From contig OY987243.1 of NCBI GenBank assembly GCA_963920765.1, forward strand, positions 20,269,419 through 20,333,418: 64,000 bases of DNA, read 5' to 3'. The first letter of the stretch is position 1. Every line of letters begins with the position of its first letter. A program made the translations under genes and the position numbers. Positions 661-58,048 of the stretch are shown in pieces. This stretch comes from Ulota crispa. Its lineage: Eukaryota; Streptophyta; Bryopsida; Orthotrichales; Orthotrichaceae. Under the pieces are notes generated by a model. That model was not told the DNA's origin. It searched no databases and worked only from the letters and a program-made list of their open reading frames with translations.

Positions 661-1560
661 CCCCTAAAGGACCAAGGAGCCCACTTTAGGCTTTATGAGA
701 ACTTGGGCAAGCTCTCTTGACTTCATAATTTGGAAAATTTTCATGAATTTTTTAGGATAGATGCTATTCATCATAATCTACATGTGAAGCTTTATTTCAT
801 GTCATTCTGATAAGTAATGCAAAAGTTAGAAGGATTTTTCAATTTCAATGTCAAATTGGGCAGCAAAAAATATGTTCTAAATTTATTTTATTTTTTTTTT
901 ATAGAATTTTATAGATTGATACCTACTCAAAAAAATTCCAAATAATGAGGTAAGAGTCAAAAGGAATTTATTTTGCAGGCAATGAAGGTAGGAAGAGGGT
1001 AGGAAAACACATATAAAGTTATCTTTTACTCTCAATTTTGAAAATTTTCAAATGAAAATGAAAATGAAAGTTACTAATTGTCTCTTAGAGCATTCTCACC
1101 ATTGGGATCAACAATTTACAAATTCTTCCAAAACTTATTAGCATATTAGTTATATCTTTCATTCATCAATACCTTTCATGTTACAATTTTTGTAAAAATG
1201 AATCCAAAGTTCTTTTGGTTAATTTTTTTGTGTGTAAGCTTTCAACACATTTTCCAACATATTGCCAAAATTGCATAAGAAATACTACATATGTGTTTTT
1301 TTCTAAAAAGTTTGAAAAACAAAACTTCACCTTTTGGAAGGATTAGAAAAACCTACATTTTGAAGTTTAGGCACATTGATCTTGCAATTGGTGGGGATGT
1401 TCATTCTGAAATTTTGGGACAATGTACTTGTGCAAGTCAACCAAAGGATCCTATGGTTGGATTTGTTAAAAAGTAAGTTTCAATGAAAATTTAGACCTTG
1501 CTTTGGGGACTAGTATTTTGAAGCAGTTTTGGGCCTCTAAACACAAAAGAATTTTAGGGG
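661..1560. mobile_element. TTAA-flanked miniature element, copy 1
   Basis: TTAA at 657-660 is followed by CCCCTAAAGGACCAAGG. The other end reads TTTTAGGGG before TTAA at 1561-1564. The ends are inverted and the target is TTAA, as in the other copies of this family. There is no transposase; the 61-codon frame at 1291 has no support. It belongs to the 0.9-kb size class. The inner match of the two ends is weaker than in other copies, so the right boundary is less sure. Confidence 0.55.
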
Positions 1561-1564
1561 TTAA

Positions 1565-2490
1565 TGGATTATTTTCCGAAGTGTGTCCATAGAACACACA
1601 AGTTATACAAGTAAGGTGTAAAAAAACATGTACTTCAAATGTAAGGGATTATTCAGGATACAAGTAAAGAATGGTGAAGCAATGAAAACAAGGGCCAATT
1701 TAACCCTAAGAGAGGATGCCATCCAAATTTAGGGGCTTTCAAACCTAAATTCTAGTTCATATAGCCCAAAAAAACTTCAAGAGCTCATTTTGATATGAGT
1801 TAAAAGGGGACCTTTTTTCTAAAATGTAGAGACCTTAAAGCCAAAAAGTTAAGGTAAGAACTACAAGCCTTGAAAAAGGAAAGTAATGAAGAAAGAGACC
1901 GATAGTACAGTTGTTGACATTTTAATTCCATGAAATACGTTATTATTATTGAAATAATTGTATTTAATATGTTTTTGACAACAAACCCAAACAAACAAAA
2001 TGGTTTCCTGTTCTTGATTAAACCAATTTTTGAAATTGCTCTACTGTAAAATATTGTCTTTTGAACATTAAGTATTCTATAAAAAAAATTAAACCAAACT
2101 CTTGAGTAAAAGAGGCTAATTTCAATGATGCAACCAATGAAAGGCAAGCAAGGACGGGAATCTTCATTAATTCCAAAATAAACTTCTAAAAAATATATAA
2201 GTTGTTTTTGTTCAATTCTAAGTTAATTATATTATAGGACTTCCTTGTTAGCACCACTTCAAGAAACAAGCAAACATGTCTTGTGCATTGTGCATTAGCA
2301 AAGTGGTTCATAGTAACTTAGGTTCATCAATCATATTATGTACCACATTATTTAAGTACTATCTCAAATTGTGTAACTCAATTGGCCAAAATTCTAAAGA
2401 GATTTTGCAAGTACACATTTTAAGTAGATAATGTATGGGGATGCTCCATTATGGCAATTGGGCCTCCTAGTTGTGGCCAAGACCCTCCGT
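1565..2490. other. AT-rich intergenic DNA, no gene
   Basis: I see no coding region or repeat with clear ends. The minus-strand frame at 1800-2147 (115 codons) is rich in F, L, I, S and Y, as expected of AT-rich noncoding DNA. Confidence 0.5.
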
Positions 2491-2499
2491 TTAGAACAA

Positions 2500-3417
2500 G
2501 GGAAATTTCATGGACACCCTTGAAGTTTGCAATAATTTCATAGATACCTGTGCTTTTTCAGAAATTTCACAAATATCCTTGGACCTTGGGGAGGTCACTC
2601 TATGTATATTTTGAGTACCCAGTGTGGCAAGGGGTTTTTTTTGGAGGGGCTATTTATCTCATAGGCAAGAATTAAAGGATCCTTATAATTACTTATAGTT
2701 GGCAAAATGGCTTATTTGATGGAACTCTATCCTTACTTATACTTTTTTTTAATGTAATTTATTCTAGGCTATTTTCTATATAAGGAAAAACCTAGAATTG
2801 AAACAAATTGAAAGGAGAAAAATTAGACAAAAAAGTACAACCTTTTTGTTCTTCCTAAAGCCTTGAAGCTACCCATTGTAATTTGAAGAAATTAGGCATT
2901 TAATTGCCAAAAAAAAAGTTTGACCCAATTGTGCACCTAACTGTACACACATGTTATACTAAATTTGATTTAGAGGATCCAATATATAATAGACTAAATT
3001 ATATGTACAAAATACTAATGACCCACATTTGAAGGCTACCAAAATTACTTATAAATGCTTTTTGGCTTTTCATGTTCGTTATCTTATTTTTAAGCTTTTT
3101 ATAAATTTTACCCGAAAAGAATAAAAGGCTATCTATATTCTGCAGCATATTGTTTCTAAAATGCAATAAGTTACCTCCTCAAGCCTTGGATTGAAATTTT
3201 CAAGTGTTTTTTTTGTTGTGCATGTAACTTCCCTTCTCCTTTTGTGCGCACAATACTTATTTCTTGTTATGTATGCACACAAAGAAAGAAGGGAAGTGAC
3301 ATGCACAACAAAAAAACACCTAATTTTTTTGGTCTAAGGGTATTTGTGAAATTTCTAAAAAAGCAAGGGTACATATGAAATTATTACAAACTTTAGGTTT
3401 ATCCATGAAATTTTCTC
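2500..3417. mobile_element. Mutator-like foldback element with 9-bp duplication
   Basis: Perfect 9-bp direct repeats TTAGAACAA flank the element (2491-2499 and 3418-3426). Its arms are inverted: GGGAAATTTCATGG at the left and CCATGAAATTTTCTC at the right. The inner arms share phrases such as 'ttcagaaatttcacaaat' with the copies at 5497 and 62697. About 590 bp of unrelated AT-rich sequence (about 2590-3180) lies between the arms. A 9-bp target duplication with long inverted repeats is typical of Mutator-like elements. No transposase is encoded. Confidence 0.75.
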
Positions 3418-3426
3418 TTAGAACAA

Positions 3427-4001
3427 TCATACTACTAAAATCGCAGTCTATTTAACAACCTATGGAATATTTTGTTTTGCATTCTATCTAGCATATAAAA
3501 ATTCTAATATAATTCTAATGATGAATGTGTAGCGTAGCAAGCGCCAACTGCTAATCATTCTACCAAAATAAAAATATCTTCTATAATATGACATCTTAAC
3601 CTTTGCAATATCACAACTCTAATCTCTGTGATACTATCACATAAATACAATTTGATAACTGAAATTTTTACTTCGCATTCTACCTAACAAATGGAAATCC
3701 TAATGCATAGTGTAGCAAGCACATATTGCTATTCATTGGACTAAAGAAGCAATCATTGGACTAAAGAAGCGTCTCACATCTTTACAGTAATTACACATAA
3801 TTCACCCTGTGACTAGGTCCCACATCGCCAAATCTCGCACTCCTGAGAACAACTTGTATGGTGTAAAAGAACCCTATCAAATATGAAAAAAAATGTTTGA
3901 TGAAGTAACTTATAATAAGAGTTATGAATAAGAATTAAAAATAGTGATAAGCGCTTACACATAAATTGTTTATCCAGGAACGCTACAATTAAATAATACA
4001 T
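3427..4001. other. AT-rich intergenic DNA, no gene
   Basis: No gene is seen. A short direct duplication of 'caatcattggactaaagaag' type sequence occurs near 3733-3770. Confidence 0.45.
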
Positions 4002-4004
4002 TTA

Positions 4005-6379: not shown

Positions 6380-6823
6380 CTAATACTGATATGCTCGGGT
6401 GTAACTTCTGTTGCGCCCGGCTTTAGAGTAATACTTCAAGTTACTGTAATAACTTGAATAATCCTCCCGAAACAAGGATCCCGTCCTAAGACCGCCGTCC
6501 TGTTCCGAATCAGTCTCCTCGCAATCATCGCATCGCTGGCACTGGTCACAATGAGCCATGAGAGACTCGTACGCCCTGTTCACTTCCCTAAAATCAACGC
6601 CGCATTCATCGTCGTTGCAAACATCCGGATGATACCGCAACGCCAATTTGCGAAACGCCGTCTTCACCTCACATTTGGAAGCGTTCGGTCGAACGCCAAG
6701 AACTCGCCTGTAATCCACTGCCGTTGACACGGACGATGATGTTCCAATTGAAGCTCGCACGACATGAGCTGTCCTCGGCGATTGCACACTCGCACCAAAA
6801 TTGTGGCAATGCGAGACCACCAT
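6380..6823 (-). CDS. Small J-domain (DnaJ-type) protein, probably plastid
   Basis: An intronless gene for a 147-residue protein. Residues 37-95 form a J domain starting DYRRVLGV, with the catalytic HPD tripeptide at residues 65-67 within RYHPDV, so it should stimulate the ATPase of an Hsp70. Neither the Gly/Phe region nor the zinc-finger repeats of full DnaJ are present. The C-terminus has a short Cys-rich patch (CDQCQRCDDC, 92-101) and a Tyr/Ser/Arg-rich tail. Size and layout match the plant 'DnaJ 11, chloroplastic' group. The first 35 residues are rich in Ser, Ala, Val and Arg and poor in acid, as in a transit peptide; plastid location is inferred. I chose the ATG at 6823 because it sits in CGCCATGG, a good plant context. 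An in-frame ATG at 6889 would add 22 residues. The GC content is clearly above that of the surroundings. Confidence 0.85.
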   Translation of the reverse strand: MVVSHCHNFGASVQSPRTAHVVRASIGTSSSVSTAVDYRRVLGVRPNASKCEVKTAFRKLALRYHPDVCNDDECGVDFREVNRAYESLMAHCDQCQRCDDCEETDSEQDGGLRTGSLFREDYSSYYSNLKYYSKAGRNRSYTRAYQY

Positions 6824-6829
6824 GGCGAA

Positions 6830-7120
6830 AGAAACGAAACAATAAACTGAAAACTCGAACCTATTTACTTGCAAACAAGAAATGCGCAAAAAGACTCAGC
6901 GAGATACGAGATCGCTGCACCGATGCAGCGATCTAAGCATTCGTTGCGATCTTCGCAATAAGCAAAACGCAGACGAGTATTGCGACGACATCGCAATCGC
7001 AACTGCAAATAACTGGCGAGGTCTGCAACGCATTTGGTGCGTCCCGCGACTTCGGCAAAAGCTCGGCCAGTAAAAAGCCCTTCCAAGTATTTTAATGCCA
7101 CGTCCTCGTACATCTGTCAA
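6830..7120 (-). promoter_or_regulatory. 5' leader/promoter region of the DnaJ gene with hairpins
   Basis: GC-richer sequence upstream of the DnaJ start holds three close inverted repeats. At 6910-6933 there is GATCGCTGCA, a CCGA loop and TGCAGCGATC. At 6944-6958 there is TTGCGA-TCT-TCGCAA. At 6979-6997 there is ATTGCGA-CGACA-TCGCAAT. They could form RNA hairpins in the leader or be binding sites. I cannot place the transcription start. Confidence 0.35.
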
Positions 7121-7741
7121 AACCCTGTGTATGTCAAATCACAGCTCCAATTAGGGCACTTTAAGACCGCCTTTATTCCTTTTCTTTCCAGCCATTTCTG
7201 ACCAACAGCAATTTTTTCTCCACCGATATTTAAAAAATAAACAAAAAAACTTAAACATCTACCCAAATATTCTCATAATTATGTAATTTCAGCAAATTCT
7301 GCAAAATCTGCAAAGTCCACATGTTGGATGAATGTTTGTGTGTTTGGATGAATAAATGGTGTTTGATTTTGTAAAACTGCGTATTGGTGGATGTAAATTA
7401 GTTTCCATCTTTCGTTGTGAGTTGTTCTACATTGAAACAAAAAGATTCAAGTGAAAGTTTTTGGAAGAAAATTCAAGTCTTTGTAGATTGTGGAGACTTG
7501 TTGGAATTGTTTGGTGTAAAATGGTGGCTACGTGGCAGTTTTTCACTCAGTCAGAGAAAGAGTGCCTGAGTTGGTCAAGGTTGCCAAGTTTCACTTATGG
7601 TCCTCTTCATTATACCTTAGGCGGCTTCAAAGTTTGAGAATATGCTGAATCCCAAAAAATACTTACGGATGTGTTCACATTTGGTATTATGGGACATGTT
7701 GGCAAAGTGTATATAAGTGTAGGAACACTCAATATACTTAA

Positions 7742-8312
7742 CCCCTAAATGTACAAGGCACCATATTTTGGTGTCGACAATATTTTGAAGTTTAATAATA
7801 CTTAACTAAGCTGCTATGTTTAGTATTTAGTATTTTAAATTTTTTTTTTTTGAAGTATAGTTTTAGTATCAAAAACCTAATTCTAAAAATTATTGATTGT
7901 GAATTTTGTATTCAAGATTTTGTGCAAGGGTGTCCATTGCAATCTTGACCTTTTTAGTGTTGAGGGCTCATGAAAATGAGCCTCAAATACACTAGGTCTT
8001 GGAGAAAAATTTGCACTAGAAATTCATTTAAAAAATTTGTATAGGAGATTTTGAAAAGCCGTAAATGGATTGGAGTTATGTATGTTATGTCCTTTAACCT
8101 CATATTTTTTTGGCAACCAACATTTTAGATTTGACATGTGAAAAGAGGATTGAAAGACTTGAAGTCATTTTTGCAATTTTAACACCCTCTTGATCAAACA
8201 TTATAATCTTTCAAGTGATATTGTTGTGTTTTCTTTTCCTACGTGATGTCTAACATATCTAGTTTGAATTTGTATGGTTGCAATTTCAAAAAAGGCCTTG
8301 GGCATTTAGGGG
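7742..8312. mobile_element. TTAA-flanked miniature element, copy 2
   Basis: TTAA at 7738-7741 and 8313-8316. The left end reads CCCCTAAATGTACAAGGC, and the right end, complemented, reads CCCCTAAATGCCCAAGGCC. The interior is clearly homologous to the copy at 53462-54104 (shared phrase 'gcaagggtgtccattgcaa'). Confidence 0.8.
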
Positions 8313-8316
8313 TTAA

Positions 8317-10957: not shown

Positions 10958-11115
10958 TAATTAGATGCTTTTCAGTACTTCTATACTAATGACCAGCACC
11001 GCTATTCTTCAATACCTCTATCCCACTATCAACATTGAAAATTCACATACCCTTATTTTCTTGAGCGCACATATTGTCATCATAACTTCCTTCTCTTGAC
11101 TCTTGATGAGTTTAA

Positions 11116-12063
11116 CCCCTCAAGGACCAAGGGTGTTTTTTGAGAAAAAAATCTCAGAAACTATCAATTTTTAGTGCAGTGTCCAAAAATGAGAATAAAA
11201 GCTTTTTTGGAATTTCAACTGTAAAAAAGTGTGTTAAGCAAATAAGCCAATGTGTGCAGAAAATTCACCCCATTTAACTGCGCCGATTGTATAATTATAA
11301 TGTGTGAAGTGAGAGAAACGATTTTGTTTGTTCTTGCAAAACAAGGCCAGTAAACTTTGAGCCCTCTTGGAGTAATTTTTTTGCTTTACTCAAAAATGAG
11401 TTTTTTGGTCATTCATAAGTATATGATGTGAGGTCAACTCATGAAAATTTTGAGAAGTAAATGTAGAATCTAGCTTATTATAAATCATTGAGCAATGCAA
11501 GGAGGTTAAGTGAATTGGTGATACACTAGTCATTTTTTTGCGATTTATTGTGCAATGAGGAAGTTTTTTATTTGAAGTCTAAATGGGAAAAAGTTAGAGA
11601 CAAACATCTAGTATATGTGAAAAAAAATTAGGGGCATTGAATATAAAATAGAAAGACAATAGGGTGTGAAATTGGAAGAAAATAATTTTTTTTGAAACTG
11701 CCTGAACATAGTCAACAAAGTTTGACTTTGCTTAAAATGCAAATTGAGATTATTATTATTATTATTATTGACAATTGTATACTATATTTCATGAGTTACG
11801 TACATGCCAAATTTCAAAAGTTGGTGAGAGTTTTAGCATCAGATTCTCCAAAAATGCTCAAACTACTTGAACTACATAAAATCTTTTGAGTAGCATAACT
11901 TTTGAATTGAGCATTTGATTGGGGACAAAATTACATTTCCATTTAGGAGACACATATTTACACCTTACATAACAATTTTGAGAACATCTAACAAAAATTA
12001 ACTTTGTATGACCCTACCCAAGTTCTCAAGTGTTTGTTAAACGGACAATTGGTCCTTTAGGGG
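11116..12063. mobile_element. TTAA-flanked miniature element, copy 3
   Basis: TTAA at 11112-11115 and 12064-12067. Left end CCCCTCAAGGACCAAGGG; right end complements to CCCCTAAAGGACCAATTG. It belongs to the 0.9-kb class. The two small plus-strand frames inside are not supported as genes. Confidence 0.8.
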
Positions 12064-12204
12064 TTAATTATGGATCAATGCAGTTTCTTATTTTGAAATG
12101 GCACAAACAACAATCTTGTTGGAATTATGTGAGTAATGCTCCACCAACCAGCTTTTTGACAATTCATTGGGTATTGCGTGCCTCTTGCAGGAGGTTCACA
12201 CTAA

Positions 12205-14810: not shown

Positions 14811-14828
14811 TGGTGCTTCCACTGAGAG
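14811..14828 (+). promoter_or_regulatory. Primer binding site of the gypsy element
   Basis: TGGTGCTTCCACTGAGAG starts two bases after the end of the 5' LTR. TGG pairs with the CCA end of a tRNA, as expected for a minus-strand primer site. I do not assign the tRNA species. Confidence 0.7.
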
Positions 14829-14858
14829 AGCTTTGGGGCGATTATTGCGTTTGTTGAT

Positions 14859-23920: not shown

Positions 23921-24201
23921 AAGTTCACACTATGTCCCAAGTCCCAGGTCCCAAGTCCCACTAAAATCTAAGAATTTGATTGGTATAAAGTCAAAAGTTG
24001 GGACTTGGCGCTTCCTACTATGTTCCAAGTCCCGGTTGCTTTCATGGCAACACTTCTTGAAAGTTTTGGCGTTAAAGGAGGTGGGACTTAACTTATGGTT
24101 TGTGATGACCATTTTGCTAGACCCAACTTTCAATCTAAGTGGCACCAATATGTTTGCATAAAGGATTCATGACTTTCTTTAGTGCTCCTTTCCGCCCTTA
24201 A

Positions 24202-24433
24202 CCTTGAATGACCGAGTTACTATAATACATACTATGTACACGAATGTATAACTAGCATTTGCTACCAACAAAAAGTTCTAATTTGGGATCTTGACTACCT
24301 CACTAGAATAGCATTGATCTATATTCTAACTTCTTTGTTGATCTCAAATGTAATATAGGTGTGGATGCACTCCAAATACAAGAAAAATACTCCCTATTGT
24401 ACTGGTCGTAAAGGGTTGCTCAGTCGTTCAAGG
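24202..24433. mobile_element. TTAA-flanked miniature element, copy 4 (short class)
   Basis: TTAA at 24198-24201 and 24434-24437. Left end CCTTGAATGACCGAG; right end complements to CCTTGAACGACTGAGC. The interior is the reverse complement of the copy at 36896-37120 (shared 'acaagaaaaatac' and 'gtgtggatgcactcc'-type phrases). Confidence 0.75.
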
Positions 24434-24826
24434 TTAATAACCTAATGAAATTGGGATCTAGCTTTGAGATGGGACTTGCATAAATGAGACGTGGGACGTA
24501 ATGTGAACACTTGTGTGTGAACATCCCCTAAGATTCATTGGGTTTTAGGACTTGGAGACATAGTACAAATGGCCTCTTGCAAGCTTAGTATTTTTTTGCT
24601 TTGTATTTGTATAAATTTAGCCATTTTAGACATATTTCGGCCAGTAAAATACCTTCCCTCCAAATATTCTCCAATGTGAGAAAGACAGCAAAGTGCTTAC
24701 TGTTCTATGGAAAAAACACTGCAGCGGGAATATGAAGATTTTTCAAAATCTGAAGCATCTGTTCAAGAGCAAATCCCCGCTGAAAAATTAACCCCAATTT
24801 TCTATTAAGCTTAGAACATCATATTA

Positions 24827-35669: not shown

Positions 35670-35673
35670 TTAA

Positions 35674-36564
35674 CTCCTAAACTACCAAGGCCATTTTCTG
35701 CCAAAAACCACTCAAAACTGCTCCTATTGCTGCGTTCATCAAAAATTACACCAAAATGATTTTCTTGGAAATCTAACCATAGGATCTTATAATGCACTTG
35801 TAGAAGAAGAAGTGCTGAAAATTTTGTGACATTTGACTGTACAGATTGAAAGTTATGAGCGTTTGAAGATTGTTATTATTATTTTTTTCATGGTGCATGA
35901 AAATTTCAGATGGCTTTGACCGCCATTTGCAAATTTTTTTTGCACTACAAACCTTGAAGCTATAATTTTACCTTATAGGTAATCAAGTAAGACAAATGTA
36001 AACCAATTTTCAAGGCAATCAAAGACACATAACATATCCTAAAAAATACTGCAATGCCATTATGTAACAAGTTTTGCCAATACACTATGACATTTTTGAG
36101 TGAAGTTTTCCACCTCATATTTTTAGATATGGAAAATCCAAACAATAAGTATAAAGATAAACATGTACTTCAAATGTTAGAGGAAAAAAAAGTTAAAAAA
36201 CTCAAAATCTCTAAAATTTACAAGCTCCCAAAGCCTAATATGACCTCCTAATTGGAAATGAAAGGGGGTAATGACAAAATAATGGGGACCACCAAAGCAA
36301 CATGTGGCAACCACTCCTTGCTCCCCTCCCTCCAAAGTCAACATTTTCTCCCTTGCCCAAGTTGCCCCTCAAACTGCTTTTGGCCAAAAAATGCCCATAA
36401 CTTGTGAACCATGTGACATAATCACATGATTTTTTGCATCCCACAAACCTTATGCATTCCTACACACTCATAAAAAGTATCAAAAAATTGTGTAAAAATT
36501 TGAGGTCACACAAGCCTACCCAAAATCCTAAAAGTCCCCCGCAAGGACTTTGGTCCTTTAGGGG
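35674..36564. mobile_element. TTAA-flanked miniature element, copy 5
   Basis: TTAA at 35670-35673 and 36565-36568. Left end CTCCTAAACTACCAAGGCC; right end complements to CCCCTAAAGGACCAAAG. 0.9-kb class. Confidence 0.75.
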
Positions 36565-36567
36565 TTA

Positions 36568-36892
36568 AGGTAGGAGGCTCATAAATGGATCATCTAAGGG
36601 CTGAAACTGAACCTTGGGGAGGTGAAACTTCTTGAAATAATTTTCAATAAATTTTCTTTCAAAGCAAGAGGAACTGGCATATGACTCAAGTTGTTCCATA
36701 TCTTTTGGAGTTTTCTGGAATTAGTTATGAAATTTTGAAATTAAAATGGCATAGGGCTCGAAAATGGATCACCTCCTCAAATGTAAATTGTTTGGACATT
36801 GTTGGAGTCTATGAAAAACAACATGTACAACAATAATAAATTTGAGTAGGTCATTCATTTTTGAGCATGATCCGAGTTAGTGCCTCCTACTT
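36568..36892. mobile_element. TA-flanked AGGTAG miniature element, copy a
   Basis: TA at 36566-36567 and 36893-36894. Ends AGGTAGGAGGCTCATAAATG and CTCCTACTT. The interior matches copies b, c and d ('ggaattagttatgaaatttt'). Both TA dinucleotides lie inside TTAA sites of the neighbouring CCCC-type elements. Confidence 0.65.
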
Positions 36893-36895
36893 TAA

Positions 36896-37120
36896 CCCCT
36901 AAACGTCCGAGCTTGCCGCTCCAACCAATACAATATGGGGTATTTTTCTTGTATTTGGAATGGATCCACACCTCTACTATAGTTGAGACCAACAAAAAAG
37001 TTGAAGAATAGATCAATGCGGTTTTACAAAGCTACTTGAGATCCCAAATTAAAAAATTTATTGGTAGCAAATGACAATTATACGTCAGCATATAATCTAT
37101 GCCCTATGGACGTTTAAGGT
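36896..37120. mobile_element. TTAA-flanked miniature element, copy 6 (short class)
   Basis: TTAA at 36892-36895 and 37121-37124. Left end CCCCTAAACGTCCGAGC; right end complements to ACCTTAAACGTCCATAGG. It is related to copy 4 in opposite orientation. Confidence 0.75.
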
Positions 37121-37391
37121 TTAATCAAAGTTTTGTTTATAAGAGGAAAAGGTAAAATGATTTTAAAGAAAATTAAAAATGATAAACTTGAATGTTTTTG
37201 AAATCGTTGATTCTTTGTCTTGGTATGTGATGAAGTCGTTGTTCACCTATGATATATAGCAAGTCAAAATGTTTTGCACAACAAATGTCTAAAAATTGTA
37301 TGTTTTAAAAACACAAGGCTTTTAACCTTGATCGTTTGAAACTGATAGGCTAAATTTTGTAAGTCATGAAAAAAGACTTTTTGTTCATATA

Positions 37392-39660: not shown

Positions 39661-39837
39661 GAATTCCAATTTTTTTTGTAATAGACACCTATTTGTAACT
39701 CTAGGTCTCCTAAAATCCGTATGCTTGCAACTAATAAAGAGACAGGTGAAAAAAAAAAAGGCTCTTGCAAAAGAATATGCCTTTTTTCTGTCCACTCAAT
39801 GGTTATAAAGGGTCCATTTAACTGTTGGCACATTTAA

Positions 39838-40607
39838 CCCTTAAAGGACCATTGGGTGGCCGTAGCTTGTCCACTTTGTAGCTTCAACAATATTAATATT
39901 GTAGCTTCAAAAGTATTTATATTGTAGCTTCAACAGTGATTTGGTTGATGAACACCAATAGTATTGCTTCTAAAAGTTTCTAAAGTCAATAGTGCATGCC
40001 AACCTCATGAAAATTGCAATAAGGGCAGCTTGGGACCCAGCACTATGATTTAGAATTCTCTTACAATTTGGGTTACGTAAAAATATAAGTATATTTGATA
40101 AGATTGTTCTTGCCTTCTATGATGGATCATGTGTTTACAATCACTTTGGAAAAAAACCGATGAAAAGCAACTTTTTTTGTTGTTGTTGTACTTCTTTTTT
40201 TTTGGGCCAAAGGACAAAAAAAGTCCTCATGGGCGCTTAGGGGTCAACAACAATTTTAACCTCTAAACGTCGGCACGGACAAAAAACGTTCATTGCCTCC
40301 AAAAAAAAACTTTGTATCCCAAAAAAAGACCAACTTTGATCTGATTTTTTTCAAAAGTGATCATAAAAGTGTAGTGCATCATGGAAGGAAACAATTTACC
40401 TTTTGAGATACATTCATTTTGTTTTGTAACCCAAATTGTGATACATGGTGTTAGCTCCCGAGCTGCCCTTCTTACAATTTTCATGAGGGCACCATGCATT
40501 GTTAACTTTTCCAACTTTTTGAAGCAATACTACTGGTGCCCATGTGCAAAACACTGTAAAATGCTAAAGACAGAGCAAGCCACGATAATCCATCCGTCCT
40601 TTAAGGG
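39838..40607. mobile_element. TTAA-flanked miniature element, copy 7 (composite)
   Basis: TTAA at 39834-39837 and 40608-40611, with outer ends CCCTTAAAGGACCATTGGG and, complemented, CCCTTAAAGGACGGATGG. Inside, a right-type end CGCTTAGGGG|TCAA (near 40236-40249) is followed at once by a left-type end TTAA|CCTCTAAACGTC (40256-40271). It is therefore either two adjacent copies (39838-40245 and 40260-40607) or one rearranged copy. Confidence 0.65.
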
Positions 40608-41044
40608 TTAAGCCACTTGAGCTGGCTGTGATGATCTCATTTGGGATCACTGCTTCTGGGAGAGATTTTCCCAAATCCAGGAATAATATCATCGGAACTT
40701 GCTCTAGAACGTTCCCATAATATAATGGGCATCCACAATAGTTGTAAAGCCCAAGTCGACGTCATACGTGAGCTAATATGCATGGGCAGATTTTTACTCA
40801 AATCTTACCTCATTTTGATACTGGTTATCTCGCCAAATGAATTGGGTTAGACCGGGGATGAAAGCAGCGGTAATAAATCTGGCTAAATTTAGCAAAATTT
40901 ATATCTTAAAATTGTGCTAAAATTGTATTGTAAAAATAAAGAGGAAAATTAAAAAAAGTAGTCAAAATCTCAAGACACAAAATTATTTTTGAGGTGAGGT
41001 GCTATTTGACGTGCTGCCATGTTGCTGATGGGACCTTAAATTAA

Positions 41045-41979
41045 CCCCTAAAGGCCCAAACAGTGTTTTTTGGCAACATAGCGATTTTGGGTAGCTCATT
41101 ACAAATGGATTTTTCTTTTTTTTTCTTTGAAATTTTCACACATGATGTGTCCAAGGAGTGGCTTTTAGGCCCAACAAATTTCATAGCTTTTGACTTCATG
41201 GTTCAAAAGTTATTGCATGATATGTAGTTTTCTTTGTTTGGGAGGTAGCCCGGGTAGCTCAAAAAACTTCTTTAAAAATTACAATTTTTGAATTTTGTTT
41301 TTTGAAGTTGGTTCTTTAGATATATATATCCTTGGGAAGCTTTGAATCATTCAATTTCCATCAATGAGATGAAAGTTATGAGGAGATTCTGTTTGCAAGC
41401 AGTTATGGATTCCCTACTCTAAAATAAACTTTTAAGTCCTATGCTTTACTCAATTTTTAATATTTTGGAAAAAAAAGTAAAGCCAAAGTATGTAGATTGT
41501 TTATTACAACATTTCAACCATTGGGATTGGAATTTTTGTTTTTCATAATTAAATTCTTAACAATTTTGTGTTTTGTATCATTCTCTACTTCTTTTTACTT
41601 ACTATTTTTTTCCTATGTGTTATACATTTCCATATGATTTGAAAATTTTCAAGTGTGTACCTGACTTGCCTTGAAGAATGAATACAAAAAATTACAACCA
41701 TTTTGAAACTTTTTTCATACAAATATGACCTTGTGAAGTGCAGCTGCTCGGATTTTTGCAGGGACAAAAAACAACTTTTTGTCAGTTCAAACTCAATCAC
41801 CTAACAATCCACAAGGCAAAAAAATTTGAATTTTTTCTACATCTTTGGATACTAGTGTACTACAAGATCTTATGGTTAGATGTGTCCAAAAATAAGTTTT
41901 ATTTAAAATTTGATACTTGCACTACAAATGGCAGTTCTAGGGCAATTTTGATGAAAACATAGTCAAAAGCCTTTAGGGG
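41045..41979. mobile_element. TTAA-flanked miniature element, copy 8
   Basis: TTAA at 41041-41044 and 41980-41983. Left end CCCCTAAAGGCCCAAACAG; right end complements to CCCCTAAAGGCTTTTGAC. The interior is homologous to copies 11 (inverted) and 13. Confidence 0.85.
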
Positions 41980-41983
41980 TTAA

Positions 41984-42864: not shown

Positions 42865-42868
42865 TTAA

Positions 42869-43109
42869 CCCCTAAGCGCTCCACAGGCCAGAATGTGGCC
42901 TCTTCATATTTGATGGTTTGTTGTTTTTGACCGTTATAATCTTTTGATTCATGCTATGAAAACTTACCAAAATTTTCATATCTATGCGGGCCTTAAGCCT
43001 CGTGCAATATCAACGGCTAACTCTTCCAAATGTTGCTTTTGAACTTGTGGTGCCAAATTGTTTGCAATGAGGTATAACACTTCACAAATTTGGTATGGGC
43101 ACTCAGGGG
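42869..43109. mobile_element. TTAA-flanked miniature element, copy 9 (short class)
   Basis: TTAA at 42865-42868 and 43110-43113. Left end CCCCTAAGCGCTCCACAGG; right end complements to CCCCTGAGTGCCCATACC. Confidence 0.75.
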
Positions 43110-43355
43110 TTAACGACCACGCCCATTTTCACAAAATCCACTGAAAACAAAGGTTGTAAGCTTAAATTTGGAATTGACTCAAATATGGACCCATTTTCAA
43201 TAATCCAACCGTACAAATCGGAAGTACATCTTGTTTACTTTAAAGCACCAAAATTTAAGCTAGATCTACCGTTGGAGGTGAAATATTATAATGATTGAGT
43301 GAGCCGTATGTGGAAAATCTTTAGTGTTTCATTCATGTTTAGTTTTGAATTTTAA

Positions 43356-44776: not shown

Positions 44777-44780
44777 TTAA

Positions 44781-45706
44781 CCCCTGAAGGACTGAACCAC
44801 TTTTTCAGTGAAAATCACTCAAAACTGCCACTTTTGGGGGTTAGTAAGAAAGTAATTTTTTTTGAAAATTTGGGAAATTCAACCGTAGGATCTTGCCCTA
44901 GATTGGATTAGGTACTTGTGAAAAAAAATCAGGTCATTCCAGATGGAGATGAGTGAGATATTTACATCTAAAGTGAAAAGAAAAGTTTTTTTCATGCTGC
45001 CCCAAAATTTCAGAAGCCTTTGACCATTCTTACATGAAAATAATTGCTCTATGCAACTTTGCGCTTTATTTTTTCCATGTGAGAGACCAAGTTAGCTATA
45101 TGTGGGAGAATTTTCAAATCATTTGGAACTACACAACACATGGGAAAAATCAGTGAGTAAAAAGAAGTAGAGAATGAGTCAAATCACTAAATTGTTAAGA
45201 ATTTAACTATTAAAATGAAAATTGCAAATCCTAATGGTCAAAATGTTGTGATAAACAATCTACTTCCTTTGGTTTAATTATTTTTCCAAAATATTGAAAA
45301 TTAAGTAAAATAAAGGACTTCAAAGTTTATTTTAGAGTAGAGAATCCATAACGGCCTGCAAACAAAAACTCCTCATATCTTTGATCTCATTGATTGAAAT
45401 TGAATGATTCAAAGCTTCTCATTTATAAAAAAAATCTAAAGAACCAATTTCAAATTTTGATTTAAAAATAAATAAAATTTAAAGAAGTTTTTGGGTTGCC
45501 CATGCGGGCAGCCCTCCCCAACTTTTCAGAAATTCTTGCGTAACTTCTTCAATAATTGTTGGAATGAGGAAAAAATTAGATGCCCGCGTAGATCTTTGAA
45601 TTCCCCACCTTCAATAAAAGTTTTAGAAATCACACAAAGTAGCTTATCCAAAGGTACATGCCCAAACTCTCACTTGTCCCCCAAAGGGACAACAGTCCTT
45701 TAGGGG
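44781..45706. mobile_element. TTAA-flanked miniature element, copy 11
   Basis: TTAA at 44777-44780 and 45707-45710. Left end CCCCTGAAGGACTG; right end complements to CCCCTAAAGGACTGTTG. The interior is inverted relative to copies 8 and 13 ('agagtagagaatccataac'). Confidence 0.85.
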
Positions 45707-45745
45707 TTAAGAAGTTTTGATAGTTTCATACTGTAAAAATAAGAA

Positions 45746-49276: not shown

Positions 49277-51837
49277 ATGGGAGCGTTCGAATGCTCTGGC
49301 GCTAAATGCAACGTTGCGGCTTGGATAGATGGATTCGTGGCCAACTGGGGGAAGGTCGCGTTAACCGTCGTTTTCGCTGCCTTGTTCGCGAAGTATTTGA
49401 TCGGCGCGACCGTGGGACGTAGAAAGCTCCCTCCAGGGCCGACACCATGGCCAATCCTTGGCAATATTGCCTCCCTCAGTGGCCTTCCGCACCGATCCCT
49501 GGAGAAATTGTCTCTCCAATACGGAGGCCTTATGTATCTTCGCCTCGGGTAATTAATCTCTGTTGCTTGATGTGGATTAAGCTTATCTTCACTTCTAAGA
49601 CGGTTCACTTTTGCATCTGCTGCTGTTGTAAGAGATTGAGGCACTTGGAAGTCTATTTGCAAATGAACGTGCGTGTTGTTGGAGATCAGTATTTTTTGAA
49701 ACATTCTACTCTTCGTTACTGGACAATGAAATATTCTCGTTCTTTAAAATTTTCGATTGCGTTTTTTATTTTCTCGTACTGTGTTTACTTTAATATCGTT
49801 TTTAATGATTATGTTCTTCCGACGTAAGAACTCATTCAAGAAGTGAAATCATCAAAAACTTGCAAATTGATTCTGAATTTGCAAACCAGATACCTTCTTC
49901 CTGAAATGCAGATTCCGTCTAGAGATTTTAGTTATTTTGAAACAATCACTGTTTGAAGCAAGCTCATAAGATTCTTAGTTGTTCGTTATGACCACAGATC
50001 TGTTCCTTGCATCGTGATTTCGAGTGCGGAAGTCGCCCGAGAGTTGTTCAAGACAGTGGATGTCATCATTTCGAATCGTCCAAGCGGTTGTTTTTTTGAG
50101 AACATGACAAGGTGCAGGAATGTGACAGCAGCTCGTTATGGTCCACATTGGCGCAAATTGAGAATGATAGCCGCTTCTGAGTTGTTCACGCAGAAGCGAT
50201 TGGATTCGTTCAAAGAAGCACGGCTTGCAGAGATCGGCATCTCTATCAAGGAGCTCTTCGTTCAGTCGGAAACACAAGGTCCAGTTGACCTTCATATGTG
50301 GCTGCACAGATTGCTATCAAACAACCTTTCGCGCGTTATTATTAATGAAAGGTATAGTGGATCTTACTCGATGCTCTATCTCTTCTTAAAGGGCCCGACG
50401 TCGATTGGCGAGGTAGTTATATGCACTAATATCTTCACCTTTTTCAAAATCTCGGCCTAGAATTTTGGAGCGAACAGATCCTTCGATATTAATGATCCAA
50501 TCCGTAATCTGAATGGATATCAGAAATCTTAAAAGAACAAAGGAAATGAATTTGTAGATTTTAGAGATGAATTCTTATCGCGACTCACCAAATTCTCTGA
50601 AACATCTTTGAAGCAGACTTTTGTTCCCGACTTACACTTCAGAGATGCTGCTCTATCAATCTGTACAGGTACTTTGGAACGGATGAAAAAGGTATGGCGG
50701 ATGCACTCGAGTTCAACAACAACACTGCTTTGATGTTTGCGCAGGGAGGTGAAGTCGTTGTAAGCGACTTCATTCCCTGGTTTAAACCGCTCACGATATT
50801 ACAAGGCAAAGGCGATATGTACCGCAAGACAGGGGTGGCTTCAATGGAAATAATGAGGAAGATGACCAAATTTGATGAGCGAAAGAAACTCCACGATGAA
50901 GCTCGAAGCACTGGTAGGCCGGAGGATTTCGTGGATGTGTTGCTGTCGTCGACCATGGCAGATGGCGTCACCCCTATGGACGAGGAAATGATTCTTTTGA
51001 CGTTGATGGTAAGATCCTCTTTGCTGAAACAAATACTCCCAGGATGTTTTCTTTGATTCCGTCTGGCAATTCTTACGTCGTAATCCACTCACTGGTATGC
51101 TAACCTACCATTTCTGTATCGGATGGTATTCCTTCAGCTATAAGAATGCTAACACAGAATGATTCTGAATGCTTGGTACTTAAATGTTCTGTTCTTGGGG
51201 TTCTGTACAGGACATTCTTGTTGCTGGAACTGATACAAGTGCGACCACGATTGAATGGACAATCACAGAGCTCCTTCGCCATCCCGAATGTATGAAAAGA
51301 GTACGCGAAGAATTGGACTCTGTTGTTGGTAACAGACTTGTCAAGGAAGAAGACCTTGGCAACCTGCCCTACCTGAACGCAGTGCTGAAGGAATCCTTCC
51401 GCCTTCACCCTGCAACTCCATTGGGACTCCCTCGCGAGGCAAGCCAACCTTTCCAGTTGCAAGGATATACTTTCCCAGTCGGTACGCGTCTGTTTATCAA
51501 TCAATGGTCAATCCACCACGACCCTGCCATTTACCCAGATCCTTACAAATTCAAGCCCGAGAGGTTTTTGGAAGGAGCAGAGATCAAGTTTGTTGGCGAG
51601 TCACAGTATCAGTTGATTCCATTCGGATTAGGAAGAAGAAACTGTTTAGGAATGCCTATGGCAATGCTAGTCATCCCTCTACTGCTGTGCCATTGCCTCC
51701 ACACCGTGGATTTCTCATTGCCTGAGGGTCTAGACCCGGAAGAGTTAGACATGTCCGAGTCATTTGGTGTGTCTGCTCCGAAAACACAGCCATTGATGAT
51801 ATACGCAAAACCCAGGGCTTCCGCCGCTTTGTATTGA
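49277..51837 (+). CDS. Cytochrome P450, A-type (CYP71 clan)
   Basis: Four exons, 49277-49548, 49998-50351, 50669-51008 and 51211-51837, give 530 residues. All introns (449, 317, 202 bp) are GT-AG and every junction keeps the frame. An N-terminal membrane anchor (about residues 24-45) is followed by the proline hinge PPGP (52-55). The oxygen-binding I-helix motif AGTDTS is at 327-332, ExxR in KESFRLHP (383-386), PERF at 438-441, and the haem loop FGLGRRNCLG with its cysteine ligand at 467. It should be an ER-bound haem monooxygenase fed by P450 reductase. The clan and general chemistry are known for such proteins; the substrate and CYP family are not evident. Length is normal. The ATG lies in a fair context (aaaATGGG). 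No interruption is seen, so it is probably functional. Confidence 0.92.
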
Positions 51838-52465
51838 CTCGTATGGATCTCATCTGGCCTTTGTAATGATTGCAGTAATCAAAATTCGGAGCATATCGAC
51901 ACCGGAGCAAGATGTGAGCTGTGAGTTCTGGAAGCCAAGGGAATTCTCTGTGATTATCGATCAAGGGTTTTTGCAATTTTTTAAAAATGCAGTGTGTATT
52001 GAAACAAAGTTGTTTACCGTTCGCAGTAAGTTTCTATCAGTGCTCGCCCCCCTCAGCAGTCAGCACTTCAACTCCTGAGAGAGCCTGAGACCCACTAGGT
52101 GGAAGATTATTTTATTTCAAACCACAGTACGAGCTGTATGAAAAGCTCTCCCTTGGAAGTTCCATTTACACCGAGTTCTAAATCTTAATGAAGCAAAAAG
52201 AACCCAAGAAATGAGTCTCCTGAACCGACCCTTTCCAAGGCCTTCATGGAACAGCATTGAGCTTGATCTCACTCAAGCTACAGAACAGTCTACTACTTGC
52301 AGAAAACATGTATTGTAGTAGTTCACAACAACTGCACAACAATCGACTACAAGTTGAGTCCATTTTGTAGTGGTCCAGTTGTTGTGCTGTGCAGTTGTTG
52401 AGTGCAATGGTTGTGAACTAGTAGTGGACAGCCGTTTATCCCTATTTTTATACTATAATTCTATT
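51838..52465. other. P450 downstream region with a short inverted repeat
   Basis: The first 250 bp or so is probably 3' UTR. An inverted repeat lies at about 52285-52430: 'gttcacaacaactgcacaac' is mirrored by 'gttgtgctgtgcagttgttg' with extra bases. It may be a small foldback element. Confidence 0.4.
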
Positions 52466-53457
52466 TACTTACAATTTATTTTCCATGTGTTTTACAGTTC
52501 CAAATGATTTGAAACTTTTATGACATGCAAATTGCTTAGGTGGAATAAAGAATCTAGAGAAGCACCACTCACATAATCTTTTTTCTTTATGAATTTCACC
52601 TTCTAAAGGGTAGCTGCTCAGTTTTTCACAAGACTCAAAAAATTGTTTTCGCATACTCAAACCTATTATCTTTCAATCCACGTTGTGGAAAATTTTGAAA
52701 ATTTCTCCACATTTTCCAAAACTACTCTACAACAAGATCCTATAATTACATAAGCATAAAAATGTTTTTGTTTTCAAATTTGATATTAGATTTGAACAAC
52801 AAACTTTTTTTGGATTTTTATTTTTTGGTCTCATAATGACACCACAAATCCAAGTGTGGAAATTATGTTTTTTAATAGTAAAAATTTGAGAATGTAAATT
52901 AAAAAATTCGTCCAAAAAGTTGGATGAACAAAATTCAAAGTGAACGTAAGAATATTTTCATCCAAAAGTTTCAATGAATAAAATTCAATTTGGATGAAAG
53001 TAGATGAATGTTAAAGCGCATTCAATGAGACATTTTGATGTTTTATTTAGTCTCTTTGAAACTAATGAGGCTCTTAAAGTGAATCAAATTTGTTACTTTG
53101 ACCCTGAAGAAAGTAATAGCAAGCTATTCTCTATTTGATTCAATGGATATTCACTTGCACAACAAGCACAAATGCATGCAATTGTTGAGGACATCAAAGA
53201 TGACAAGACTAATATTGAAACTATGTTATACATCCAAAGCAAATGATTTTTTTTATATAATGAATTTATGGCCCATGATAAAAAAAATTGTCTATTTAGC
53301 TTGAAATAAGTGTTTGTATTCATTCACTACTATTATTGACGATTTGTAATAGACCAAGTTTATTTAAACACTGTATGGCAAATGCACGGTAATTAAACCA
53401 AGCGTATTTAGACAATTTACTATTTAAGTATGTACTTTAGTTTTTAACTAATGGTTG
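52466..53457. other. AT-rich DNA with a fragment of the TTAA family
   Basis: The part 52480-52800 resembles the interior of the 0.9-kb TTAA-flanked elements ('ccatgtgttttacagttccaa'-type phrase), but no CCCC ends are found. No gene is seen. Confidence 0.4.
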
Positions 53458-53461
53458 TTAA

Positions 53462-54104
53462 CCCCTCAACGCCCAAGGGGCGTTTATTTTGCCTCTCTAA
53501 ATTTTGTTCAGGGATACCAAAAGTTTTTTGAAGATTTTTTATGTGGTTATTATTATATCTAAATTGTTGTTGACGTCTAGTTTCAGCATCAAAAGTCTCA
53601 TCTTGAAAATGAATTAACATGATTTGTCTATTCAAGTTTGTGCAAGGGTGTCCATTGCAAATCTTCACTTTGTAGTGTTGAAGGCTCTTGCAAATGAGCC
53701 TCAAGTACACTAGAACTTGGAGAAAAATTGCATTAAAAATTCACTTAAAAAAATTGTAGAATAGATTTTGAGAAGCCGTAAATTGATTGGGGTTATGCAT
53801 GTTGTACTTTACATACTCATATTTTTTTGGTACCCTCAATTTTAGGTTTGAGATGCAAAAAGAGGACTGAAAGACTTCAAATCACTTTTGCAGTTTTAAC
53901 ACCCTCATGATCAAACCTTATAATCTCTCAATCCATAAGTGATATAGTTGTGATTTCTTTTTGTATGCAATCTATAACATGTCTACTTTGAATTTGTACG
54001 GTTACATTTCAAATTTTTTTGATAAGATTGATCAAAATGCCAGCATTTTGTTCACTTTCAAGCAAATTTTGAAATACTCCAAAATTCCAGGGGCGGTGAG
54101 GGGT
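53462..54104. mobile_element. TTAA-flanked miniature element, copy 12
   Basis: TTAA at 53458-53461 and 54105-54108. Left end CCCCTCAACGCCCAAGGGG; right end complements to CCCCTCACCGCCCCTGG. The interior is homologous to copy 2. Confidence 0.85.
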
Positions 54105-54108
54105 TAAG

Positions 54109-54650: not shown

Positions 54651-54939
54651 TAAGGTAGAAGCACCCATAAGTGCTAGTGTCCCCATAACTGTCACCTCTA
54701 AAATCTTGGAAAATCTGTGGAAATGAATAGCTGTAATTATAAGAATGTACAACATGTGAACATGAAACCTTAGTGTTGGTTATGGGTGCAATGATAGTTT
54801 GCTCTTTAAAAATTCAAAACTTATTTTCATAGTATCCAAACAATACATTTGAATGTGCAAACTCATTATTTTTTGTTCCTAATAGAATCCTATAATTTGC
54901 TAGTTATTTATTAACATTCATCATGTTCAAAACCCTTAA

Positions 54940-55858
54940 CCCCTAAAGGACCATTGTCAGTTTGGCTGACATTTGTGATTTTGGGCATATTCCTATGGCT
55001 AAACTACTTTTGTGTAATTTTTGAAACTTTTATTGAAGTTAAGAAATTCATAGCTCTACGCAGGAATGTAATTTTTTCTTCATTTTGACATTTATTGAAG
55101 AAGTTATGCATGAAAATCTAGAAAATGCTACTCCTCATGCAGCCAAAAATTCTTTAAAAATTTCATTTTTTTCAAATAAAAACCTGAAGTAGGTTCTTTA
55201 GACTTATATAGAAGCGAGGAGCTTTGAATCATTCAATTTTGATAAATGAGATGAAAGTTATGAGGTGTTTTTGTTTACGGGTAGTTTTAGATTCTCTACT
55301 CTAAAATAAACTTTGAAGTCCTTTATTTTACTTAATTTTCATTATTTTGGAAAAAAAACAAAATCAAAGGATGTAGATTGTTTATCACAACACTATGACT
55401 GTTGGGATTTGCATTTTTCATTTTAATTATTAATTTCTCAACAATTTAGTGTTTTGACTTTTTTTTTTTTTTTTTACTTACTATTTTTTCCCATGTGTTG
55501 TATAGTTCCAATTGATTTGAAAATTCTCCCACACATACCTAACTTGGTGTACTACATGGGAAAAATAAAGCACAACTTTGTGTAGAGTAATTTTTTTGCT
55601 CTAAGAGTGGTCAAAGCCTTCTAAAATTTTTTGGCAATAGCAAAAGAAACTTTTTTTTTGCAATTTAGATGTAAATATCTTACTCATTTTTGGGTAGATT
55701 GAGCTGAATTTTTTACCATGTATACCTCTTACAATCTACTATAAGATCTTACAATTGAATTTTTGTAAAAAACTCTTTTTCTTACCATTGTACTTGCTTC
55801 CCCAAAAGTGGCAGTTTTCTGTGTTTTTTGCAAAAAAAATGGCTTGGTCCTTTAGGGT
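54940..55858. mobile_element. TTAA-flanked miniature element, copy 13
   Basis: TTAA at 54936-54939 and 55859-55862. Left end CCCCTAAAGGACCATTGTC; right end complements to ACCCTAAAGGACCAAGCC. It seems to sit inside a TA-flanked AGGTAG-type element: AGGTAGAAGCACC at about 54651 on the left and GGTGCTCCTACTT at about 55881 on the right. Confidence 0.85.
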
Positions 55859-55899
55859 TTAACTAAAGTGATGCTTCTAGGTGCTCCTACTTTCTTCAA

Positions 55900-55928
55900 A
55901 TAGAATAGTCCTCTTCAACACTTTTTTT

Positions 55929-55966
<38 letters not shown>

Positions 55967-56105: not shown

Positions 56106-56239
56106 AGCTTCTAGGAAGCCATTTTTTGAAGATGACATAGTGACTCAAATTGTAGGTTTTCAATTTTGTTCACAATTTAATGAAGTTTAAAATCTCAAAT
56201 ACAAAGACTGTTTACCTTATGTGCTATTTAACATTGAGT

Positions 56240-56323
56240 AGTTTATAGCAAACTCTTTCTGAAGATAATCTCATCTTGAGCAGTTTATAGCAAACTCTTT
56301 CTGAAGATAATCTCATCTTGAGC
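56240..56323. repeat. Perfect 42-bp tandem duplication
   Basis: The unit beginning 'agtttatagcaaactctttc' occurs at 56240-56281 and again at 56282-56323 with no spacer. Confidence 0.9.
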
Positions 56324-56384
56324 CAAAGTTTCTTAAATTTATTTACATTTTGATCAGCTTTGAGGTCCCATCTACTAAAACCTT

Positions 56385-56735
56385 TGGTTGAAGGTGCTAA
56401 TACATCTCCAAAAATGGCTTGTTGAAGTGCTATTTGATATCGAATAGCACTTCAACAAGCCACTATTGGAGATATATTTGCAATTTTAAAACTTATTAGA
56501 TTGTAAACAAAATTGTGAATCTCAAATTTGAGGTGCTAATTCATCTCCAAAAATGGCTTGCTCAAGTGCTGTTTGATATCAAATAGCACCTCAACAAGCC
56601 AAAATGGTCTTAGTATTTGTGATTTTAAAACTCATTAGATTGTAAATAACATTATAGATCTCTAATTTGAGGTACTAGTCCATCTTCAAAAATGGCTTGT
56701 TGAAGTGCTATTTGATATTGAATAGCACTTTTACA
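56385..56735. repeat. 139-bp tandem array, each unit with a hairpin
   Basis: Three units have hairpins starting at 56416, 56555 and 56694, exactly 139 bp apart. In the first, GGCTTGTTGAAGTGCTATT and AATAGCACTTCAACAAGCC are perfect inverted arms around TTGATATCG. The second has a few changes and the third lacks the end of its right arm. Confidence 0.8.
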
Positions 56736-56859
56736 ATAAACAAAGTACGTATAATAGAATATTATTTTTGAAAAAAATATAAAATATAAAAGGGCTATTT
56801 GGAATTCAAATAGTCCTCTACAAACCCAATAAAATTGCAAAATGTGCTATCCAAAATTA

Positions 56860-57509
56860 AATATGACCTTAGGACAAAATGAAATAAAATAACATAAAAT
56901 AAAATATTGTTTAAATGGATTATTTAAGGATCTAAATAGCCTTCTATGAGCCACTAGGATAACAAAAAATGCTACTTAAAATCTAATAAACTCTTTTAAC
57001 CAAAACAGAAAACCTCAAAAATTAAAAATTAAAAATTTGATTTTATTTATTTAAAAAAAAAATTGGTCAAAGAAGCTTTTCTAAACTCTAAGATAGCTCA
57101 TGAAAGAGCTATTTTGGAATCAAGGAAGTTTCTTGTGGTTTTACAATGGCTTGTGGTGCCAGTAAGTCCCAAATGGATCACTTAACGCATTTTAGAATTG
57201 ATGTGTGGCATAATATAGCAAAAAATTTATTCATTGGAGGTAAAAATTAAAACTAACTTACAAATAAAGAAGAGAACATTCCAAGTGCTAAATCTAATAT
57301 AAATAATATAAGTACACTACAAATTTAAGGCATCGATTTTTCTACAACTAATGTAGAGCACAAGATTTAGAGTTATGATATGCACAAGATTATATCTAGT
57401 GTGGATTTGTATAGGTAGTTAGGTATTTGAGGGGCTAAGTTGTATTGAATAAAGCATAAAAGCAAAAGTGAATTAGAAAAAATAATAGGAAGTGAAAAAA
57501 ACTCTAAAT
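56860..57509. other. AT-rich intergenic DNA, no gene
   Basis: I see nothing definable beyond A/T-rich low complexity. Confidence 0.45.
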
Positions 57510-57513
57510 TTAA

Positions 57514-58048
57514 CCCTTAAGTGCCCAATTGATCATTTTTTGATCGCTGCCTGTTTTTTTTGGGTTGCTTAAGACAAAAAAAACTTTAGAAAAAAACACT
57601 GATTTTTGCAATAGAAAATCAAATCTACTTTCCAACTTAACTTGAATCATATCAATCCAAGTTAAACTCTACCAAGGAGAATTTTTCAAAGACAAACACT
57701 ACAATATTTGCTAGTGTTGTAAAATTTACTATTTCAAGAAACTAATGATGTTCTCTCCTTTCAAAAAATTACATTTTTGAAGTTTAGATAGAATGTTTAT
57801 TTTTAACCAATCCTATCAAATTTTGAAATCTATGAGTAAAATTTGTAATTTTGGTGAATATTAAATGATAAATGTTTCTAAATTCATTATATAAAAATCC
57901 AAAACTTTTTTTGAGTGTTTGACCATATAGATAATTACTAAAAATTATGATTTTATTTTCTCTTTTGAAGCATACTTCATTAAAATTACAAAAGTATCAT
58001 TTTATAACACATTTATATTTTGGCCTTAACCCCTTGGGCCTTTAGAGG
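57514..58048. mobile_element. TTAA-flanked miniature element, copy 14
   Basis: TTAA at 57510-57513 and 58049-58052. Left end CCCTTAAGTGCCCAATTG; right end complements to CCTCTAAAGGCCCAAGGGG. A second TTAACCCC lies at 58026, just inside the right end. Confidence 0.7.

Follow-up and report, generated by a model that had tools for sequence, protein, structure and literature searches.

Miniature elements flanked by TTAA in a plant genome and their probable derivation from piggyBac transposons

The window analyzed here (64,000 bp of contig OY987243.1, assembly GCA_963920765.1) contains 13 miniature elements with inverted ends, whose relation to piggyBac transposons of the same genome is the subject of this work. 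The original prediction, made from the window alone, had named 13 TTAA-flanked segments with complementary ends, and all of them exist: each of the 13 noted positions was the base directly after TTAA, and an inward-facing partner end was present for every copy. The 17-base end TTAACCCCTAAAGGACC matched the window 19 times at ≤3 mismatches, versus a mean of 0.23 expected from 100 dinucleotide shuffles of the window (largest shuffle count, 2). The 13 paired elements total 8,839 of 64,000 bp, so that the predicted share of about a sixth of the window was measured as 13.8% for the elements listed. They are given below; a strand is stated where one was assigned, and z values refer to a comparison of subterminal regions with long piggyBac elements (among them E38), as described further below.

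657..1564, miniature element of 908 bp with TTAA on either side, neither subterminal region reaching z 5
7738..8316, miniature element of 579 bp, paired ends, below z 5
11112..12067, miniature element of 956 bp, paired ends, below z 5 versus the long elements
24198..24437, miniature element of 240 bp with the divergent end TTAACCTTGAATGACC
35670..36568, miniature element of 899 bp, one end at z 22.9, the other below 5
36892..37124, miniature element of 233 bp, paired ends
39834..40611, fold-back of 778 bp, self-inverted match of 65.9% over 646 columns
41041..41983, miniature element of 943 bp, E38-like at one end (z 10.1)
42865..43113, miniature element of 249 bp, paired ends
44777..45710, minus strand, miniature element of the main ~930-bp family, 934 bp, E38-like at both ends (z 8.0 and 12.1)
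53458..54107, miniature element of 650 bp, paired ends, below z 5
54936..55862, plus strand, miniature element of the main ~930-bp family, 927 bp, E38-like at both ends (z 8.1 and 9.9)
57510..58052, miniature element of 543 bp, paired ends, below z 5

Homologous interiors had been predicted for each size class, and this held for several pairs (78–80%). The copies at 44777 and 54936 were 78% identical from end to end, those at 7738 and 53458 were 80% identical across 457 columns, and the interiors of the 24198 and 36892 copies had 161 columns in common at 79.5%. The 41041 copy shared approximately 390 columns at 79–83% with the 44777 and 54936 copies. The prediction failed for the copies at 657, 11112, 35670, 39834, 42865, and 57510, which gave short or no matches to other listed copies; the 57510..58052 element was joined to the main family through BLAST linkage. 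A weaker end pair was found inside the fold-back at 40247 and 40256, and the fold-back may be either a single element whose inverted arms are long or two neighbors in inverted orientation that meet near these positions. Unpaired ends also occurred in the window, the best being 44017(−) at 2 mismatches and 23617(−) at 4. Outside the listed end pairs, window positions 52450-52785 resembled part of the 41041 element (68% identity across 340 columns) and probably represent a truncated copy. The end CCCCTAAAGG of window elements includes CCCTAAA, the plant telomere repeat unit; this likeness is probably a coincidence.

TTAA stood directly before all 15 window matches to CCCCTAAAGGACC (≤2 mismatches), with all four bases kept, and before 105 of 125 matches to this end in the window plus the loci fetched from the genome. 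The bases just outside TTAA showed no conservation, in a sample for which TTAA was required and in which some loci were counted twice. Empty sites, a check proposed with the original prediction, were sought by bridging the two flanks of every candidate with a single TTAA and comparing the resulting 122 joins with the window and the fetched DNA. Many join matches were the locus itself or other copies; 32 join-spanning alignments representing ten insertion sites were inspected. The slot at the related empty sites comprised exactly four bases in 27 of the 32, and a single intact, ungapped TTAA was present in three (3 of the 10 sites), including the closest relative of all 32.

L020:5379-6317 versus L020:2198-1958, intact TTAA, 91.4% identity over 244 columns (closest relative)
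L021:4154-5074 versus L018, intact TTAA, 77.7% identity
L022:4931-5476 versus L019, intact TTAA, 83.2% identity

The empty sites thus support, on few sites, a four-base target that is TTAA where intact, and the duplicated TTAA is the target found in piggyBac. The ends, CCCC...GGGG, are of the short inverted type YYY...RRR (Y, pyrimidine; R, purine) and carry the CCC of piggyBac termini.

The genome searched comprised 274.8 Mb in 157 contigs. The exact 17-mer end occurred 4,072 + 4,082 = 8,154 times, versus 0 for the reversed control, and the degenerate end TTAACCCYTNANNGNCC 15,685 + 15,633 = 31,318 times, versus 4 + 5 = 9. The window holds 14 TTAACCCYTNANNGNCC ends, approximately 1.9x the mean genome density, and 13 of these 14 fall in the 13 elements, which have 26 ends. 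Simple proportion from the window suggests, as an extrapolation, approximately 30,000 elements making up ~7% of the genome. The fetched loci L009-L028 were picked around exact end matches, which biases density and end conservation upward. After removal of doubled loci (L002 and L003 = L015; L005 and L006 = L016), 51 end pairs >4 bp remained in the window and fetched loci, 27 of them 881–963 bp in length. Thirteen deduplicated copies of the main family showed 72–80% identity to their majority consensus, a divergence that suggests age or the existence of several subfamilies. At L012, a letter-identical 928-bp element was present twice in inverted relative orientation (L012:1911-2838 and L012:8795-9722), probably as a recent inverted segmental duplication; the divergence figures use one of the two copies. 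Back-to-back elements with one TTAA between them (GGGGTTAACCC palindromes) accounted for 5 of 56 end pairs after deduplication (L009:1414, L010:7086, L017:3209, L018:8024, and L021:2863). An interpretation of these junctions as dimers like those of KolobokP was dropped, as their number is about that expected from TTAA insertion at such end density (an uncomputed estimate).

The piggyBac transposase domain PF13843 matched the genome at least 120 times (best E value 1.3e-73), a lower bound because 116 of 528 candidates were scored, whereas none of 14 control genomes gave a match. None of the 120 listed matches falls in the window. No DNA transposase was found among the 10 Pfam-scanned of 36 window ORFs (open reading frames of ≥110 codons); five of these 10 had no match at all. 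Nine transposase stretches were examined, and PF13843 was confirmed on 8 of 10 ORFs scanned. The original prediction had proposed a search for a longer element with the same ends and a DDE transposase. Four of the nine stretches indeed lie within segments of 5–8 kb bounded by like TTAACCC ends, and these represent full-length relatives with the same ends.

E31, C5:10867266-10873011, 5,746 bp, both ends TTAACCCCTAAATGCCT
E32, C3:13130262-13135288, 5,027 bp, ends TTAACCCCTCATCGCCA and TTAACCCTTCATTGCCA
E39, C2:24506994-24512223, 5,230 bp, ends TTAACCCCTTGAGGGCT and TTAACCCCTTGAGGACT
E38, C7:11814404-11822436, 8,033 bp, ends TTAACCCCTAAAAGCCC and TTAACCCCTAAAGGCCC

Within E38 lie a microsatellite and a nested miniature copy of 926 bp. 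For E29, a weak, poorly matching candidate end pair was found, and for E41 one end only, each within the fetched DNA; E30, E40, and E42 had no ends in the fetched DNA. At the DNA level, the sampled long elements were unlike one another. Transposase pieces matched the solved structures of piggyBat (9c0f; 1.7e-16 and 5.8e-17) and piggyBac (6x67; 3e-13 and 4.1e-20). The motifs DE, DNFF, and VDxxDQ and a Cys-rich C terminus are features of the Trichoplusia ni piggyBac enzyme. All three D motifs were found by pattern in 5 of the 9 stretches (L030, L031, L032, L038, and L041) and the Cys-rich C-terminal pattern in 4 (L030, L031, L032, and L042), while alignment revealed N in place of the third D in L029. 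Additional frames beside the transposase, both without a Pfam match, were present at L031:4002-5291 (430 codons, inside E31) and L029:429-1490 (354 codons). Stop codons interrupted 110 of the 120 listed transposase matches, and amplification may therefore be a past event. Matches free of stops were found in L030 (C2:34594948-34595949), L041 (C1:1180709-1181995), and L042 (C8:19570986-19572215); none of the three had an element-like end pair in the 6–10 kb fetched, L041 having one downstream end. They may be genes retained by the host, or copies with ends of a different kind.

The miniature copies were linked to the long elements through their subterminal regions. Bases 18-180 from each side of 36 copies of 500–999 bp were compared with the ends of five long elements (E29, E31, E32, E38, and E39), with 60 dinucleotide shuffles each as null and a threshold of z ≥ 5; two of the 36 are the identical inverted pair of L012, both counted here. 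A match to an E38 or E31 end was obtained for 26 of the 36 copies, whereas E29, E32, and E39, serving as controls, matched none at z ≥ 5. Both opposite ends were matched in the expected order in 11 copies (10 to E38, 1 to E31), the same E38 end was matched on both sides in two copies in a fold-back-like manner, and one side only was matched in 13. Thus, both subterminal regions are common to a full-length element and its presumed derivatives in 11 of the 36 copies, as expected of piggyBac-derived miniature inverted-repeat transposable elements (MITEs). The copy that matched both E31 ends, L010:5485-6392 (908 bp), aligned with them over 560 columns at 75% and 114 at 69%, with z values of 37.7 and 9.9 when the terminal 17 bases were excluded.

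The test covered nine window copies, with those at 24198, 36892, 39834, and 42865 outside the set, and four of the nine matched E38: the 44777 and 54936 copies did so at both ends, those at 35670 and 41041 at one end. In the 35670..36568 element, positions 1-545 aligned with E38 8033-7489 (62.4%) and positions 791-899 with E38 107-1 (65.8%); on this alignment it is taken to be an internal-deletion derivative of an E38-like piggyBac element. The 7738..8316 copy was weakly like the E31 ends, with 67% identity across 122 columns at one of them and a 29-bp match at the other, and the 11112..12067 copy aligned across 963 columns, at 68.6% identity, with the miniature element that E38 contains. Positions 1-207 of the main-family consensus, made before duplicates were removed, aligned with the first 207 bases of E38 at 65%, and positions 505-928 with the last 425 at 61%. 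Internal deletion is the simplest reading of this match.

Taken together, these elements are very probably non-autonomous, MITE-like, internally deleted piggyBac derivatives with full-length parents in the same genome. Full-length piggyBac elements would encode a DDD transposase that recognizes short CCCC-type ends and directs insertion into TTAA, which is thereby duplicated. Loss of internal sequence, with both ends and the subterminal regions retained, would have given rise to families of ~230–250, 500–670, and 880–960 bp, whose members would then have been mobilized in trans and have multiplied to many thousands of copies. Such mobilization would presumably have proceeded by cut-and-paste with seamless excision, and classes lacking a matched parent probably followed the same route.

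Several observations weigh against this derivation. Twenty of the 125 end matches in the window and fetched loci lack a preceding TTAA; 29 of the 32 spanning alignments were changed or gapped at the slot, often to TTAG or CTAG; and one of the three intact sites, that of L022:4931-5476, sits within another element of the same kind. Decay of TTAA in the relatives is likely, as these are mostly only 70–83% identical. The ends are frequent enough for an inward end to occur by chance a few kb away, and for 5 of the 9 transposase stretches the fetched DNA contained no convincing pair of similar ends; however, both ends of E31, E32, and E39 share a variant of their own, which speaks against chance pairing. 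Ten of the 36 tested copies stayed below z 5 at both ends, among them 5 of the 9 tested window copies (657, 7738, 11112, 53458, and 57510), for which a piggyBac parent would be deduced from the ends. Finally, the E38 match could in principle reflect a miniature element with a large insertion. This reading is weakened by the interior of E38, where the only TTAACC ends found around the transposase are those of the nested copy and one poor match.

The four-base target and the enclosed transposase also bear on other sources of such elements. Stowaway (Tc1/mariner) and Tourist (PIF/Harbinger) are common plant MITE kinds that resemble the window elements in being short, non-coding, AT-rich, and of high copy number with inverted ends; they duplicate a TA or 3-bp target and have other ends and other transposases. 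If the TTAA belonged to the inverted repeat of such elements, the TA within it would be the actual target, and the finding of intact TTAA in only 3 of 32 empty-site alignments would be accommodated. Nevertheless, we regard this origin as very improbable: all 15 window matches keep TTAA and the slot is four bases wide in 27 of 32 alignments, contrary to a duplication of TA alone; TTAA at both palindromic ends cannot result from a 3-bp duplication of TTA or TAA; TA or TTA in place of TTAA was seen at none of the three intact empty sites; and the transposase between like ends belongs to PF13843. Kolobok, which the original prediction had offered beside its first-named superfamily, piggyBac, shares the TTAA target, duplicated by a Kolobok DDE transposase, but its termini are described as 5′-RR...YY-3′ in the part of the source available (PMC9587614, also for the duplication), opposite to the CCCC...GGGG found here. 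As the transposase found between like ends was again PF13843 and both subterminal regions of such an element are common to many copies, the first-named superfamily was borne out and a Kolobok origin is scarcely credible, although no search aimed at a Kolobok transposase was made in the rest of the genome.

A mixed origin is harder to dismiss, though still unlikely in our view: the ~930-bp family would derive from an E38-like piggyBac element, and the ~230–250 bp classes would be moved by a separate, unsampled transposase using TTAA and similar ends. For the interiors of the short copies compared, the five sampled long elements indeed gave either no match or one limited to a few dozen bases, with the exception of L009_3476 (280 bp), which matched an E38 end, and the difference of the sampled long elements from one another at the DNA level leaves room for such a second source. 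Against it, the short classes carry the same type of ends, TTAA followed by CC, and piggyBac matches are so many in this genome that an unsampled parent would most simply be another piggyBac. Neither of the outcomes that the original prediction had named as speaking against itself, a TTAA that is not duplicated or an autonomous parent of another superfamily, was found.

By their TTAA target, CCC-type ends, PF13843 DDD transposase, internal-deletion derivatives, and, in some copies, the Cys-rich C-terminal pattern, the elements resemble the piggyBac superfamily (T. ni piggyBac, Myotis lucifugus piggyBat) and its MITEs; CCC at the first three bases of the terminal inverted repeat is typical of piggyBac according to the accessible part of PMC10813416. 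They differ from known piggyBac in their plant host, the >31,000 ends, and the further 430-codon frame of E31, and the bounded elements of 5.0–8.0 kb are larger than the ~2.5 kb given there for well-defined piggyBac (PMC10813416). The hosts of Kolobok include chlorophytes and rhodophytes, with no land plant named in the part of the source available (PMC9587614).

The assumption of the original prediction that the DNA is from a plant fits the presence of LEAFY in the genome (PF01698, E value 1.2e-27; PF17538, E value 8.4e-51), with 0 of 14 control genomes positive for each of the two domains. LEAFY is not known outside land plants and their algal relatives. The DNA-binding domain of the copy in this genome contains KPKMRDYVHC and GAWCQACY, and D and C at these positions are reported to mark moss LEAFY; by this key, the host is most likely a moss. 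Elsewhere in the window, a Ty3/Gypsy-type retroelement at 14826-21049 has two long open frames, of 873 and 1,221 codons from one stop to the next, with DUF4100 and with RVT_1, RNaseH, and integrase-type domains, and cytochrome P450 gene pieces and a DnaJ-domain ORF lie at 49957-51837 and 6380-6895.

No report of native piggyBac in mosses was found among the papers listed in searches of an open-access library; a moss genome paper uses "expression piggybacking" in a different sense, as far as its accessible text goes (PMC10619864). In the accessible parts of other papers, piggyBac-like elements are stated in passing to occur in plants (PMC8086355 and PMC10813416, the former relying on work including Bouallegue et al.), and PiggyBac is listed among plant superfamilies in a review (PMC10794571); because of these earlier statements, no claim of a first case in land plants is made. 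Where numbers are given in the portions available, they are low: piggyBac is almost missing both from the fern Ceratopteris, with 1,230 fragments totaling 122 kb (PMC6890710), and from the grass Stipa, with a single fragment of 75 bp (PMC8319324).

The mechanism proposed is ordinary for the superfamily, and abundance and host are the unusual part. Native piggyBac of land plants is little described in the accessible literature, whereas piggyBac itself is a widely used genetic tool in animals. More tentatively, and with more doubt than confidence, mosses might hold an old piggyBac radiation of many lineages, with varied ends in which TTAA is followed by CCCC, miniature families of their own, several percent of the genome (~7% as extrapolated), and a few stop-free transposase genes, lacking a detected end pair, that may have been kept by the host. 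If so, a superfamily mostly regarded as belonging to animals would have a stronghold among plants in the mosses, either inherited long ago or acquired by transfer from animals or fungi. The presence of >31,000 ends and at least 120 transposase matches in a plant would change the picture of where this superfamily thrives and would provide a natural case for studying how several miniature families can be supplied by one family of transposases.

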